The notes under the pieces are model-generated. The model was not told the DNA's origin. It saw nothing but the letters and a program-made list of their open reading frames with translations, and did no database searches. A stretch of DNA of 64,000 nucleotides from Parabacteroides sp. ZJ-118 (GTDB lineage: Bacteria; Bacteroidota; Bacteroidia; Bacteroidales; Tannerellaceae), in assembly GCF_011038785.1 (NCBI RefSeq), contig NZ_JAAKDT010000010.1, forward strand, positions 1 through 64,000, read 5' to 3'. The position numbers and the translations under genes were made by a program. Shown here piece by piece: positions 9,252-27,646 of the stretch (position 1 is the first letter of the stretch; the number at the start of each line of letters is the position of its first letter).

Positions 9252-10544
9252 ATGAGAGCAAGAGTAACCTTATTAGTATTCGCCATTCTTTACAGTTTCA
9301 CGAGTCTGGCACAAACTAATTTTGAAAAACACTTCACGAAGAAAAGTCTTCGGATTGATTTCGCATTGAGCGGGAATTGGGATTTCCAAGCCGCCGCCAT
9401 ACAACAACTCCGGGAAGAACCCATCTGGGCAGGGCCGGTCAGAAACTTGATCGATCCGTTTGGTTATGGAGGATATTATGTTAATGTATACGATAAGACC
9501 GGTAAAGAGCTGATCTATTCGCGAGGATTCAATACGTTATTCGAAGAATGGAGAAGTACGGAGCAAGCGAAGGCCGAGACACAGTCTTGGACAAATAGTG
9601 TCTCTATCCCCTATCCGAAAGCTCCTGTCATCATTGAGATTACGGCAAGAGACAAGGCCGACATGCAGTTCCATCCTTTATTGAAACAAGAGATTGATCC
9701 GGCCAGTATTTTTATTGACCGAGGGAAACTCAAGGAAAACCGGATCACAAAAATCCAATACAACGGGGACTCTTCCGAGAAAGTAGACCTCGTATTTTTA
9801 GCGGAAGGCTATACGGTGGATGAGCAAGAGAAATTCGTAGCTGATGCCAAACGTTTTACGGAGGCATTGTTTAAAACCCCTCCTTATGACACGCGCCGGG
9901 AAGATTTCAATATCTGGGCGGTAGATGCCGTTTCGGAAGAATCGGGAACAGATGTATCCGGTAAAGGTATATTCAAGAATACCGCATTGAATTCTGGTTA
10001 TTATACGTTTGGTGTAGATCGCTATTTAACCACTCCGGATATGAAATCTATACGTAACGCCGTATGGAATGCTCCTTGCGACGCGATCTTTATCTTGGTA
10101 AACACAGACGCTTACGGTGGTGGCGGCATGTACAATTTTTACGCCATGGGAACCGCCGATAACCCACGTACCCCGGTCGTATTCGTTCACGAGTTCGGAC
10201 ATAGTTTCGCGGGTCTGGCAGATGAATATTTCAGTTCCGAGGTCGCTTATCAAGATTTTTATAACTTGAAGTACGAACCTTGGGAACCGAACATCACGAC
10301 CTTGGTTAACTTCGATGCGAAATGGAAAGATCTTTTGCCGGCTAATACACCGATACCTACCCCATTAGACGATGCTCATAAGGATAAGGCTGGTGTATTC
10401 GAGGGAGGCGGTTACCTCACAAGAGGTATTTATCGCCCGATGGATCACTGTATGATGCGTGATTACGCTCCATTCTGTCCGGCTTGCAGCCGGGCGATCT
10501 TACAAATGATCGATTACTTCACAGATAAACCGATAAAACATTAA
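9252..10544 (+). CDS. M64 family zinc metallopeptidase, secreted
   Basis: 430-residue exported protease. A signal peptide (LLVFAILYSFTSLAQ) is followed by the M64 N-terminal beta domain (to about 150) and the catalytic domain. The zinc site is HEFGHSFAGLAD, fitting the HExxHxxGxxD pattern. A C-terminal CMMRDY...CPAC segment probably forms a disulfide. M64 is named for the Clostridium ramosum IgA protease; Bacteroidetes members are common and their substrates are mostly untested, so IgA cleavage should not be assumed. Transcribed alone. Confidence 0.9.
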   Translation: MRARVTLLVFAILYSFTSLAQTNFEKHFTKKSLRIDFALSGNWDFQAAAIQQLREEPIWAGPVRNLIDPFGYGGYYVNVYDKTGKELIYSRGFNTLFEEWRSTEQAKAETQSWTNSVSIPYPKAPVIIEITARDKADMQFHPLLKQEIDPASIFIDRGKLKENRITKIQYNGDSSEKVDLVFLAEGYTVDEQEKFVADAKRFTEALFKTPPYDTRREDFNIWAVDAVSEESGTDVSGKGIFKNTALNSGYYTFGVDRYLTTPDMKSIRNAVWNAPCDAIFILVNTDAYGGGGMYNFYAMGTADNPRTPVVFVHEFGHSFAGLADEYFSSEVAYQDFYNLKYEPWEPNITTLVNFDAKWKDLLPANTPIPTPLDDAHKDKAGVFEGGGYLTRGIYRPMDHCMMRDYAPFCPACSRAILQMIDYFTDKPIKH

Positions 10545-10588
10545 AATCCGCAACTATAAATGTCGCGAAACGCATATTTCGAATATTT

Positions 10589-10615
10589 CATGTAAACATG
10601 TGATTCATGTATGAA
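10589..10615. promoter_or_regulatory. Paired short palindromes upstream of IMPDH gene
   Basis: CATGT-AA-ACATG (10589-10600) and TTCAT-GT-ATGAA (10604-10615) lie side by side just upstream of a TACTTTCG box at 10626-10633. Two adjacent dyads at a promoter suggest an operator; no regulator is known for it. Confidence 0.3.
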
Positions 10616-10625
10616 CAAAAATCGC

Positions 10626-10633
10626 TACTTTCG
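10626..10633 (+). promoter_or_regulatory. Probable -7 box of IMPDH gene
   Basis: TACTTTCG, variant of TAnnTTTG, giving a leader of about 30 bases before the ATG at 10671. No TTTG -33 box; the paired dyads occupy that area. Confidence 0.4.
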
Positions 10634-10670
10634 CGCAATAAAAAAACTCATCCCGTAAATATAAAATCTT

Positions 10671-12164
10671 ATGGCAATCTACTTAAACGATGTATCGAGA
10701 ACATTTGGCGAGTATTTACTTATTCCCGGTTTAACCACCAAAGAATGTATTCCTGCAAACGTTTCATTGAAAACGCCGCTTGTGAAATTCAAGTCTGGCG
10801 ATAAATCCGCTATTGAATTAAATATCCCTTTCGTTTCAGCGATCATGCAATCGGTTTCCGGCCCTAAATTGGCGATCGAGTTGGCTCGCAACGGAGGACT
10901 TTCTTTCATCTTCGGCTCGCAACCGATCGAAAGTCAAGCGGATATGGTTCGCAAAGTAAAGAAGTTCAAGGCCGGATTCGTTATCAGCGACTCTAACCTT
11001 ACGCCCGAGAACACCTTGGCCGATGTGCTTGAGCTAGTCCGCCGGACGGAACATTCCACGATTGGTGTGACAGACGACGGTACGCCTAACGGCAAATTGC
11101 TAGGTATGGTAACCAGCCGCGACTACCGTGAGGGCAAAGACCCGATGGACATGAAGGTAAAGGATTTCATGACCCCCTTCGCTAAACTAATCGTCGGCGA
11201 GTTAGGTATGACCTTGAAGGAGGCGAACCAGATTATCTGGGATCACAAGTTGAATACATTGCCGATCATCGACAAGGACCAGAAGCTTCAATACTTCGTC
11301 TTCCGCAAGGACTACGACAGCCACCGCGAGAACCCGAAAGAGTTGTCCGGCGGAGATAAGAAATTATTGGTAGGTGCCGGTATCAATACCCGCGACTATA
11401 AGGAACGTGTCCCGGCATTGGTAGAGGCAGGGGTCGACGTATTGTGTATCGACTCTTCCGATGGTTATTCCGAATGGCAGTACGAGACCTTGCACTGGAT
11501 CAAGGACACTTATGGAGACAAGGTATTGGTTGGTGCCGGAAACGTGGTTGACCAAGAGGGTTTCAACTATTTGGCTGACGCCGGAGCGGATTTCATCAAG
11601 GTAGGTATCGGTGGGGGGTCTATCTGTATCACCCGGGAGCAGAAAGGTATCGGCCGCGGACAGGCTACGGCCTTGATCGACGTAGCGAAAGCCCGCGATG
11701 AGTATTTCAAGAGACACGGCGTTTATATCCCTATCTGTAGCGATGGCGGTTTGGTACACGATTATCATATGGTATTGGCGTTGGCTATGGGAGCCGACTT
11801 CCTGATGATGGGCCGTTATTTCGCCCGCTTCGACGAGTCTCCTACGAAGAAGATGAAAATCGGGAACAACTTTGTGAAGGAGTATTGGGGTGAGGGATCC
11901 AACCGTGCGAAGAATTGGCAGCGTTATGACATGGGAGGAAACGAGTCCTTGAAATTCGAGGAAGGCGTGGACAGCTATGTACCGTATGCAGGAAAATTGA
12001 AAGATAATTTGAACGTGACATTGGGTAAGATGATCGCTACGATGTGCAGCTGCGGTTCCATCTCCATCCAAGCGTTGCAACAGCATGCCAAGATCACGCT
12101 TGTCTCCTCTACGAGTATCGTTGAGGGCGGTGCTCACGACGTGATCCTGAAAGAACAGAATTAA
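10671..12164 (+). CDS. guaB: IMP dehydrogenase, Tritrichomonas foetus-type
   Basis: 497-residue NAD-dependent enzyme converting IMP to XMP, the first step to GMP. The TIM barrel is split by a CBS pair (about residues 100-220). The catalytic Cys is residue 319 in [11 protein letters not shown]; Asp261 lies in CIDSSDG, and Arg418-Tyr419 in the mobile flap (NWQRYD). These three positions equal the numbers published for the protozoan Tritrichomonas foetus enzyme, and long stretches look alike from memory. A GMP reductase role is less likely but possible, as kinetoplastid GMP reductases also carry CBS domains. An AraC gene follows 44 bases later. Confidence 0.88.
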
Positions 12165-12208
12165 TTGCAATTTACACATTCAATAATCCACCATGAAGGA
12201 TCTGGAGA

Positions 12209-13087
12209 ATGGATATTATTCGCGAAATAACCCCTCTATCGGAAAAGGACTGTTTTTACATCGCAGACCGGCGTAAGACAGAATTTACCTATCCGATCCA
12301 TTGCCACTTGGAGTACGAGCTCAATTTCATCGAGCACGCTCCGGGGGTAAGGCGTGTGGTCGGTGATTCCGCGGAAGTGATCGGAGAATACGAGTTAGTA
12401 TTGATAACCGGGAAAGAGCTGGAGCATGTCTGGGAACAGAACACCTGTAAATCGCCTCTGATCCATGAGATCACGATCCAGTTCTCTCCCGATCTCTTCG
12501 GGAAGAATCTATTGGAGAAAAACCCATTCAACAGTATCCGGAAAATGTTGGAGAAAGCTCAATGCGGCATCAGCTTCCCGATGTCTTCCATCCTGAAGGT
12601 TTACCGTTTACTGGGAAAGCTGGTATCCGAGGAGCAAAGCTTTTATGCGGTAATCAATTTCTTCACTATCTTGTATGAGCTTTCCGTCGAGGAAAACTAC
12701 AAGGTATTGTCCAGCTCCTCATTCGCGAAAATAACGGATATACATTCCGAAAGCCGTCGTATCCAGAAAGTACAAACTTACATCAACGAGCGATACCAAC
12801 AGGACATCCGCCTGAACCTGCTGGCGGAGCTCGCAGGTATGACCCCTTCCGCTTTCAGCCGCTTTTTCAAGTTAAGGACAGGGAAGACCCTTTCCGACTA
12901 TATCACCGATATCCGTATCGGTTACGCCTCCCGCATGTTGGTAGACACGCAACGGTCCATCGCCGAGATTTGCTACGACTGCGGCTTCAATAACCTCTCG
13001 AACTTCAACCGTATCTTCAAGAAAAAGAAGAACTGTTCTCCCAAAGAGTTCCGGGATAACTACAAAAAGACAAAAATCATTGTATAA
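12209..13087 (+). CDS. AraC-family transcriptional regulator
   Basis: 292-residue regulator. The N-terminal half is a cupin-like sensor domain (HCHLEYELNFIEHAPG), the usual ligand pocket for sugars; the last 100 residues are two helix-turn-helix units (LNLLAELAGMTPSAFSRFF and SIAEICYDCGFNNLSNFNRI). The first ATG with an upstream AGGATCTGGAGA fits well. It sits directly before the SusC/SusD locus in the same direction, and is the likely local regulator of that locus, though a role near the IMPDH gene upstream cannot be excluded. Confidence 0.92.
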   Translation: MDIIREITPLSEKDCFYIADRRKTEFTYPIHCHLEYELNFIEHAPGVRRVVGDSAEVIGEYELVLITGKELEHVWEQNTCKSPLIHEITIQFSPDLFGKNLLEKNPFNSIRKMLEKAQCGISFPMSSILKVYRLLGKLVSEEQSFYAVINFFTILYELSVEENYKVLSSSSFAKITDIHSESRRIQKVQTYINERYQQDIRLNLLAELAGMTPSAFSRFFKLRTGKTLSDYITDIRIGYASRMLVDTQRSIAEICYDCGFNNLSNFNRIFKKKKNCSPKEFRDNYKKTKIIV

Positions 13088-26446: not shown

Positions 26447-27646
26447 ATGAAGAAGAAAGTAGTAGTAGCGTTCAGCGGAGGTTTGGATACCTCGTTCACG
26501 GTCATGTATCTGGCGAAGGAAAAAGGATACGAGGTGTACGCCGCTTGCGCTAACACCGGTGGTTTCAGCGAGAAACAATTGAGACAAAACGAGGAGAACG
26601 CCTATAAGCTAGGCGCCACGAAATACGTGACGATCGACGTTACGAAAGAGTATTACGAGAAGAGCTTGAAGTACATGATTTTCGGGAACGTGCTGCGTAA
26701 TGGTACGTATCCTATCTCCGTGAGCTCCGAGCGTATCTTCCAAGCTTTGGCGATCGCCCGCTACGCGAACGAGATTGGCGCCGACGCTGTCGCTCATGGT
26801 TCTACCGGAGCGGGTAACGATCAAATCCGTTTCGATATGACTTTCTTGGTATTGGCCCCGAACGTGGAGATTATCACTTTGACCCGCGATATGGCCTTGA
26901 GCCGTGATTTTGAGATCAACTACTTGAAGGAGCACGGTTTCGAGGCTGATTTCACGAAGTTGAAATATTCCTACAACGTAGGTCTTTGGGGAACCTCTAT
27001 CTGCGGTGGCGAGATCCTCGATTCCGCGCAAGGATTGCCCGAGAGCGCTTATCTGAAACAAGTGGAAAAGACCGGTAGCGAGCAATTGCGCATTGAGTTC
27101 AAGAACGGTGAGGTTCATGCCGTGAACGGTGAGGTGTTCGAGGATAAGGTCGCCGCTATCCAGAAGATCGAGAAGATCGGGGCCGCTTATGGTATCGGTC
27201 GTGATATGCACGTGGGCGATACGATCATCGGTATCAAGGGGCGCGTCGGTTTCGAGGCTGCCGCTCCGATGTTGATTATCGGGGCGCACCGCTTCCTGGA
27301 GAAATATACGTTGAGCAAATGGCAACAATACTGGAAGGATCAGGTAGCGAACTGGTACGGCATGTTCTTGCACGAAAGCCAATATCTGGAACCGGTGATG
27401 CGCGATATCGAGGCGATGCTGCAAGAGTCTCAGCGTAACGTGAACGGTACGGCTATTCTGGAGCTTCGCCCGTTGTCCTTCTCTACCGTTGGCGTAGAGT
27501 CTGAAGACGACTTGGTAAAGACGAAATTCGGTGAGTACGGGGAGATGCAGAAAGGCTGGACCGCCGAGGACGCAAAAGGCTTTATCAAGGTTCTTTCCAC
27601 TCCGTTGCGTGTTTATTATACAAACCATAAAGACGAGGAGATATGA
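26447..27646 (+). CDS. argG: Argininosuccinate synthase
   Basis: 399-residue ATP-dependent ligase joining citrulline and aspartate. The ATP pyrophosphatase loop is VAFSGGLDTSF at the N-terminus; AHGSTGAGNDQIRFD and the YNVGLWGTSICGGEI region bind substrates. Length is normal. Its stop overlaps the argC start by four bases (ATGA), so translation is coupled. Confidence 0.97.
   Translation: MKKKVVVAFSGGLDTSFTVMYLAKEKGYEVYAACANTGGFSEKQLRQNEENAYKLGATKYVTIDVTKEYYEKSLKYMIFGNVLRNGTYPISVSSERIFQALAIARYANEIGADAVAHGSTGAGNDQIRFDMTFLVLAPNVEIITLTRDMALSRDFEINYLKEHGFEADFTKLKYSYNVGLWGTSICGGEILDSAQGLPESAYLKQVEKTGSEQLRIEFKNGEVHAVNGEVFEDKVAAIQKIEKIGAAYGIGRDMHVGDTIIGIKGRVGFEAAAPMLIIGAHRFLEKYTLSKWQQYWKDQVANWYGMFLHESQYLEPVMRDIEAMLQESQRNVNGTAILELRPLSFSTVGVESEDDLVKTKFGEYGEMQKGWTAEDAKGFIKVLSTPLRVYYTNHKDEEI

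Follow-up and report, generated by a model that had tools for sequence, protein, structure and literature searches.

A Tritrichomonas foetus-type enzyme as the only full-length IMP dehydrogenase found in a Parabacteroides genome that keeps a relic of canonical guaB

The locus and the type of its enzyme

The window, i.e. the whole stretch of 64,000 nucleotides of Parabacteroides sp. ZJ-118 that was analysed, carries on its forward strand an intact open reading frame with an ATG at 10671, 497 codons and a stop codon that ends at 12164. The features discussed here are the following.

10671..12164, forward strand: gene of a PRK07107-type (Tritrichomonas foetus-type) IMP dehydrogenase (IMPDH), 497 aa; the sole full-length IMPDH/GMPR-family gene found in the genome
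10998..11123, forward strand: Pfam CBS match, residues 110-151, Bateman insertion (coordinates computed from residue numbers)
11451..11453, forward strand: codon of Asp261; Asp in 154/154 distinct members
11625..11627, forward strand: codon of the catalytic Cys319; Cys in 154/154 distinct members
11922..11927, forward strand: codons of the Arg418-Tyr419 flap dyad, the IMPDH hydrolase signature; Arg-Tyr in 154/154 distinct members

The product matches the NCBIfam model NF005493 (PRK07107, an equivalog named 'IMP dehydrogenase') with 958.2 bits over residues 1-496, for a cut-off of 585, whereas the model of ordinary IMPDH, i.e. canonical GuaB (TIGR01302), gives 342.5 bits and stays below its cut-off of 481.5. 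Among PDB chains searched with phmmer, the T. foetus IMPDH (1ak5) comes first, with 774 bits over residues 1-495, and Listeria Lmo0132 (8ebc) next, with 610 bits; apart from the chains of these two proteins, the best match is the IMPDH of T. maritima at 260 bits. In a tree rooted with canonical GuaB, the four canonical rows make a separate group (100*), apart from the T. foetus type. The sequence-only reading of this DNA had set the protein apart from ordinary GuaB and had proposed a tree as the check; scores and tree agree with it, and the window protein does not group with ordinary bacterial GuaB. As judged from sequence, it is an additional member of the PRK07107-type family, which is already known and includes Lmo0132, and it has no feature that would set it apart as a family of its own.

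How close is the protein to the enzyme of T. foetus, the eukaryotic cattle parasite from which the type is best known? The same reading described it as almost residue-for-residue of that type. The type stands and the wording does not, since identity is only 68.1% over 495 aligned residues. The active-site loop of 18 residues is identical in the two proteins, but the flap segment of 10 residues differs by one letter from EYWGEGSSRA of T. foetus. The catalytic numbering was read correctly: alignment gives identical letters and numbers in both proteins for D261, C319, T321, R418-Y419 and E431. These six letters are invariant across 154 distinct T. foetus-type members and 52 distinct canonical GuaB. 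Hence, the catalytic residues do not distinguish the type; what does is their numbering, together with the loops and the score over the whole length. Canonical GuaB, e.g. that of P. distasonis, shares the Pfam family and the catalytic residues with the window protein but is only 36% identical to it, and position 382 is Arg in 154/154 T. foetus-type members whereas it is Ser, Gly or Asn in 52/52 canonical GuaB.

In the IMPDH mechanism as outlined in PMC2525682, Cys319 serves the dehydrogenase step and Arg418, Tyr419 and Thr321 the activation of water. Given the conserved residues, Cys319 of the window protein would attack IMP and NAD+ would take the hydride; the flap with Arg418-Tyr419 would then close, activate water and release XMP. 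The protein is thus expected to be catalytically active as an IMP dehydrogenase.

The best named relative in a plasmid collection is the protein of P. distasonis TSDC17.2, which is 99.2% identical to the window protein. By Pfam, genes for an M64 peptidase, an AraC regulator, a TonB receptor and a SusD protein lie near the gene both there and in the window. The window's genome would thus be that of a Parabacteroides (Tannerellaceae in the taxonomy line of the TSDC17.2 record) near P. distasonis. P. distasonis (L288) has its IMPDH gene flanked by a pirin and an alpha-galactosidase gene; the window, where the adjoining spaces are 10545-10670 and 12165-12208, has no room for them. No repeats of at least 12 were found in window positions 10400-10800 and 12100-12300. 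Genes similar to the window gene also occur on records labelled plasmid or phage. Two P. distasonis 'plasmids' carry tig-clpP-clpX-recQ-guaB and SusC/SusD loci, a gene content that makes these records look like pieces of chromosome, and we therefore gave no weight to such labels.

More distant relatives, 49-54% identical to the window protein, occur on actinobacterial plasmids of Streptomyces (L284), Embleya (L285 and L286) and Mycolicibacterium (L283). The Streptomyces protein is over the PRK07107 cut-off, and genes for asparagine synthase and amino acid adenylation start within 3.5 kb of its gene, on the other strand. One might speculate that these plasmid relatives perhaps confer self-resistance to an IMPDH inhibitor. 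No canonical actinobacterial GuaB was found in the Embleya record, which holds two other IMPDH-family genes, both below the cut-off; the canonical actinobacterial sequence was taken from Nonomuraea instead.

Origin of the Tritrichomonas foetus gene

The sequence-only reading had also suggested that a gut Bacteroidales gene of this kind could lie near the bacterial lineage that gave T. foetus its enzyme, i.e. that a PRK07107 gene of Bacteroidales passed to a parabasalid. A similarity of 68% invites the idea, but the closest relatives of the T. foetus enzyme lie elsewhere. Genomes, one for each species, were scanned with an alignment that has the T. foetus enzyme as its first sequence. Of the 577 relatives confirmed, the best 80 are by record title all Bacillota, bar one Coriobacteriales, with identities of 68-74% and with Listeria ilorinensis and Clostridium sporosphaeroides at their head; no Bacteroidales appear by title among these 80. 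A filter on motif and length kept 74 of the 80 loci and dropped 6. The best identity to T. foetus is 73.7% among these 74 scan proteins, versus 69.7% among 78 fetched Bacteroidales proteins.

Trees were made from rows thinned by identity (92 rows: 39 of the 78 Bacteroidales, 47 of the 74 scan proteins, the window protein, T. foetus and 4 canonical GuaB); 12 further rows of the window's own family were left out of the 78- and 80-row trees. Nesting of T. foetus within Bacteroidales was tried and rejected, because the Bacteroidales clade excludes it at 100/100 in two maximum-likelihood trees: one unrooted, of 88 rows, where the clade holds 39 of the 40 Bacteroidales rows (the exception is the protein of genome G155, discussed below), and one with a canonical outgroup, where it holds 27 rows. 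The T. foetus protein has an end branch of 0.5-0.6 and its place shifts between trees. In the unrooted 88-row tree it joins the branch that parts Bacteroidales from the remaining rows, as a Bacteroidales donor would allow. It falls among Bacillota rows with a canonical outgroup, there unsupported, or with an actinobacterial one. In the latter tree, T. foetus and 48 other rows from outside the Bacteroidales clade stand behind a 100/100 branch, and T. foetus pairs with the Coriobacteriales row at 96/88, two long rows whose pairing may be an artefact. The actinobacterial outgroup itself attaches among Bacteroidales rows at 11/57, which puts the root there without support, and because of this long branch no single branch of that tree separates the Bacteroidales from all other rows (0% of 200 bootstrap trees). 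The bootstraps of the unrooted tree, the canonical-outgroup tree with the 27-row clade and the actinobacterial-outgroup tree had not settled.

Trees in which T. foetus is forced together with Bacteroidales are worse by 11.2 and 11.7 log units, with p-AU of 0.38 and 0.37. These tests do not reject a sister relation, so that the data reach only as far as saying that T. foetus is not nested in Bacteroidales. With the 100/100 exclusion and the closer Bacillota-scan proteins on the other side, we regard a Bacteroidales donor near the window gene as very unlikely. Our best guess from these comparisons is that the T. foetus gene came from Bacillota rather than from Bacteroidales. Another protist, Cryptosporidium, also has a bacterial IMPDH, which according to PMC545779 derives from epsilon-proteobacteria and which would belong to another IMPDH subfamily than the window protein.

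Canonical guaB in the genome, the genus and the order

The window comes from a draft genome (G000) of 3.17 Mb in 125 contigs, 99.88% complete. Searches of this genome with Pfam PF00478, the window protein and TIGR01302 returned no other full-length member of the IMPDH/GMPR family. The remaining matches are all short (11-30 bits against TIGR01302, 24-26 bits against PF00478), and there are two further short Pfam matches (C28 and C47). What is present is a relic. On contig 40, outside the window, at about 26,900-27,310 (L002 1293-1680, reverse strand), 387 nt between recQ and a peptidylprolyl isomerase gene (ppi) hold the end of a canonical guaB. The relic reads as residues 437-467 of the guaB of genome G004 (90%) and then, in another frame, as residues 468-491 (75%); at the DNA level, 259-261 nt of guaB end and spacer are 91-92% identical to G004 and G005. 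The upstream spacer is still recognisable beside it, its end and about 436 guaB codons are missing, and the junction is visible. Canonical guaB would thus once have stood between recQ and ppi, where the closest relatives still have it, and in the window's lineage a deletion would have taken the last part of the upstream spacer together with the gene up to about codon 436, leaving a frameshifted 3' scrap. An unassembled guaB may exist in a draft of 125 contigs, though the syntenic place is assembled in the middle of a contig and holds the relic.

The genome also contains guaA, and a source of XMP is therefore expected; XMP from the IMPDH would be turned into GMP by GuaA. We consider it very probable that the window gene is a functional PRK07107-type IMPDH and that this genome has no other way to make XMP from IMP, the guaB between recQ and ppi having been deleted down to a frameshifted scrap.

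Bacteroides carry a standard guaB, and the sequence-only reading had taken the window gene for a possible second, specially regulated isoenzyme beside it. Such pairs occur in relatives: P. distasonis TSDC17.2 has tig-clpP-clpX-recQ-guaB-ppi on one record and the T. foetus-type gene on another, and eight genomes of the genus carry a stop-free canonical copy as well. The expectation of a second IMPDH was thus right for relatives but fails for the window's own genome, where the only canonical trace is the 3' scrap, and the isoenzyme reading is highly improbable there. That the enzyme is instead a Bateman-domain GMP reductase of the kinetoplastid kind hardly deserves credence: the superfamily is shared and two GMP reductases in the PDB, 6lk4 (157 bits) and 6jig (153 bits), are matched, but the Arg418-Tyr419 dyad is present, the models NF052358, NF003470, NF003966, TIGR01305 and TIGR01306 give 88-181 bits for cut-offs of 344-675, and the genome would be left with guaA and without IMPDH.

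The preferred reading, a sole PRK07107-type IMPDH after deletion of guaB, fits into a pattern in the genus ('genus' and 'family' are used here as the search tool groups genomes). Of 38 genus genomes, 37 have the T. foetus-type gene in full length; the other, G031, has only a fragment at a contig end, of unverified type. Full-length canonical guaB occurs in nine of the 38, eight times without stops and once, in G021, with two in-frame stops. A tenth carrier, G023, has a copy truncated where the contig ends, and in G024 there is a second match, a partial one. In G021 the stopped guaB (contig 262, L096/L023), with the T. foetus-type gene present too, reflects either early decay or assembly errors. 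The interval from recQ to ppi could be measured in 33 of the 38 genomes (all but G023, G025, G028, G034 and G036): it includes full-length guaB in nine and lacks it in 24. Two of these 24 keep a coding remnant, the 3' end in the window's genome and 23 N-terminal residues in G015.

To count the changes of state of guaB, the T. foetus-type gene and a recQ tail were combined in one gene tree of 39 rows (37 genus genomes and two from the family), for which long branches and uneven base composition were flagged. On this tree guaB switches between presence and absence at least seven times, and four of these switches are forced by starred branches; however, 15 of 500 shuffles of the labels required no more changes than that. 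The window's genome lies in a set of four at 100/100 in which the other three carry guaB, and G015 forms a group (98/96) with G014 and G012, the latter a guaB carrier. The count of changes alone cannot separate gain from loss, but losses are the likelier direction because the guaB site is syntenic and relics exist. The site would be older than the genus, since it is common to the records of P. distasonis and of Bacteroides finegoldii, where the order is recQ, two lipocalin genes, guaB and ppi. The best reading is that canonical guaB was lost repeatedly after the PRK07107-type IMPDH had made it dispensable, the redundancy of two IMPDH enzymes presumably having allowed the loss. Genomes without guaB are also smaller (Mann-Whitney p 0.0026 for 24 genomes at least 95% complete, with kinship uncorrected and G021 counted as a carrier; p 0.00009 for all 38 genomes, again with kinship uncorrected). 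The loss of guaB may thus belong to a general shrinking of the genome and have brought no advantage.

Beyond the genus, the T. foetus-type gene is present in all 45 family genomes that are at least 95% complete, and ten of these have a canonical match over the cut-off, the stop-broken G021 copy included. Among 149 genomes drawn evenly from the order, 122 have the canonical type only, 18 the T. foetus type only and at least four both; one has fragments only (G084, not typed) and four have no match at E 1e-60. This tally was made from score bands among the matches listed, the second match of G069 being among those unlisted, and 20 of 20 fetched order sequences of the T. foetus type carry its motif. 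Such near exclusion of the two types is what functional replacement predicts. The four genomes without an IMPDH match at E 1e-60 (G086, G094, G127 and G191, all at least 95% complete) are either affected by assembly gaps or guanine auxotrophs, and they show that absence of the gene occurs in drafts.

G155 stands apart in the order. Its protein (L150, contig 19) scores 962 bits against the PRK07107 model, well over the cut-off, and is 69.7% identical to the T. foetus IMPDH versus 66.6% to the window protein. It groups with a Clostridia row in the canonical-rooted tree (98*) and in the unrooted 88-row tree (99/95), and G061, of the same genus, has canonical guaB. These data suggest that the gene of G155 may be a second, independent acquisition.

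The alarmone pocket and the displacement of GuaB

According to PMC9462843, the Bateman domain of most bacterial IMPDHs contains a pocket for (p)ppGpp. The pocket residues R71, R125, N144, E188, K206 and K210, in the S. coelicolor numbering of that source, were mapped through the sequence of 7pmz; the pocket E118 of the source corresponds to a D in the 7pmz chain as mapped, and the actinobacterial set in the comparison was a single row. Positions 71, 125, 144, 188, 206 and 210 read R, E, S, N, K and S in the window protein, i.e. most of the pocket signature is missing. More generally, canonical GuaB carries most of the pocket residues and the T. foetus type is without most of them: a basic residue at 125 is found in 51/52 canonical vs 0/154 T. 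foetus-type proteins, Asn144 in 51/52 vs 3/154, Glu188 in 52/52 vs 0/154 and Lys or Arg at 210 in 52/52 vs 1/154, this one being T. foetus itself. Yet, Lys206 is kept in 154/154 T. foetus-type proteins and position 71 is also basic in the window protein, while Leu stands at position 118 in 47/52 canonical GuaB, which makes the function of the pocket uncertain on both sides. The aspartates of Bateman sites 1 and 2 are Asp in 154/154 T. foetus-type proteins at both sites. With most pocket residues missing and these aspartates kept, the synthesis of guanine nucleotides should escape inhibition by (p)ppGpp through the pocket, and direct alarmone control would have been lost in genomes relying on the T. 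foetus-type IMPDH.

One might then propose, tentatively and at somewhat less than even odds in our judgement, that canonical, alarmone-type GuaB gave way repeatedly, in Parabacteroides and the family around it, to a T. foetus-type IMPDH that has no alarmone pocket, and that the synthesis of guanine nucleotides was thereby freed from direct (p)ppGpp control. The genus would show the stages of such a displacement: both genes intact, the canonical one with stops, a 5' relic, a 3' relic, and no trace. Our search of open-licence PMC papers found, among those listed and by title or start of abstract, none on a T. foetus-type IMPDH in Bacteroides or Parabacteroides. Since the family itself is known, the interest lies in this being the only IMPDH found in the genome, in the visible and repeated loss of the canonical one, and in the missing alarmone pocket. 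Species that depend on the T. foetus-type enzyme might escape inhibitors directed at canonical bacterial GuaB. Closely related genomes with one or both IMPDH types, which differ at the residues that bind alarmones in other IMPDHs, make a natural experiment, and the need for direct inhibition of IMPDH by (p)ppGpp in GTP homeostasis thereby becomes testable in gut commensals kept as laboratory strains.
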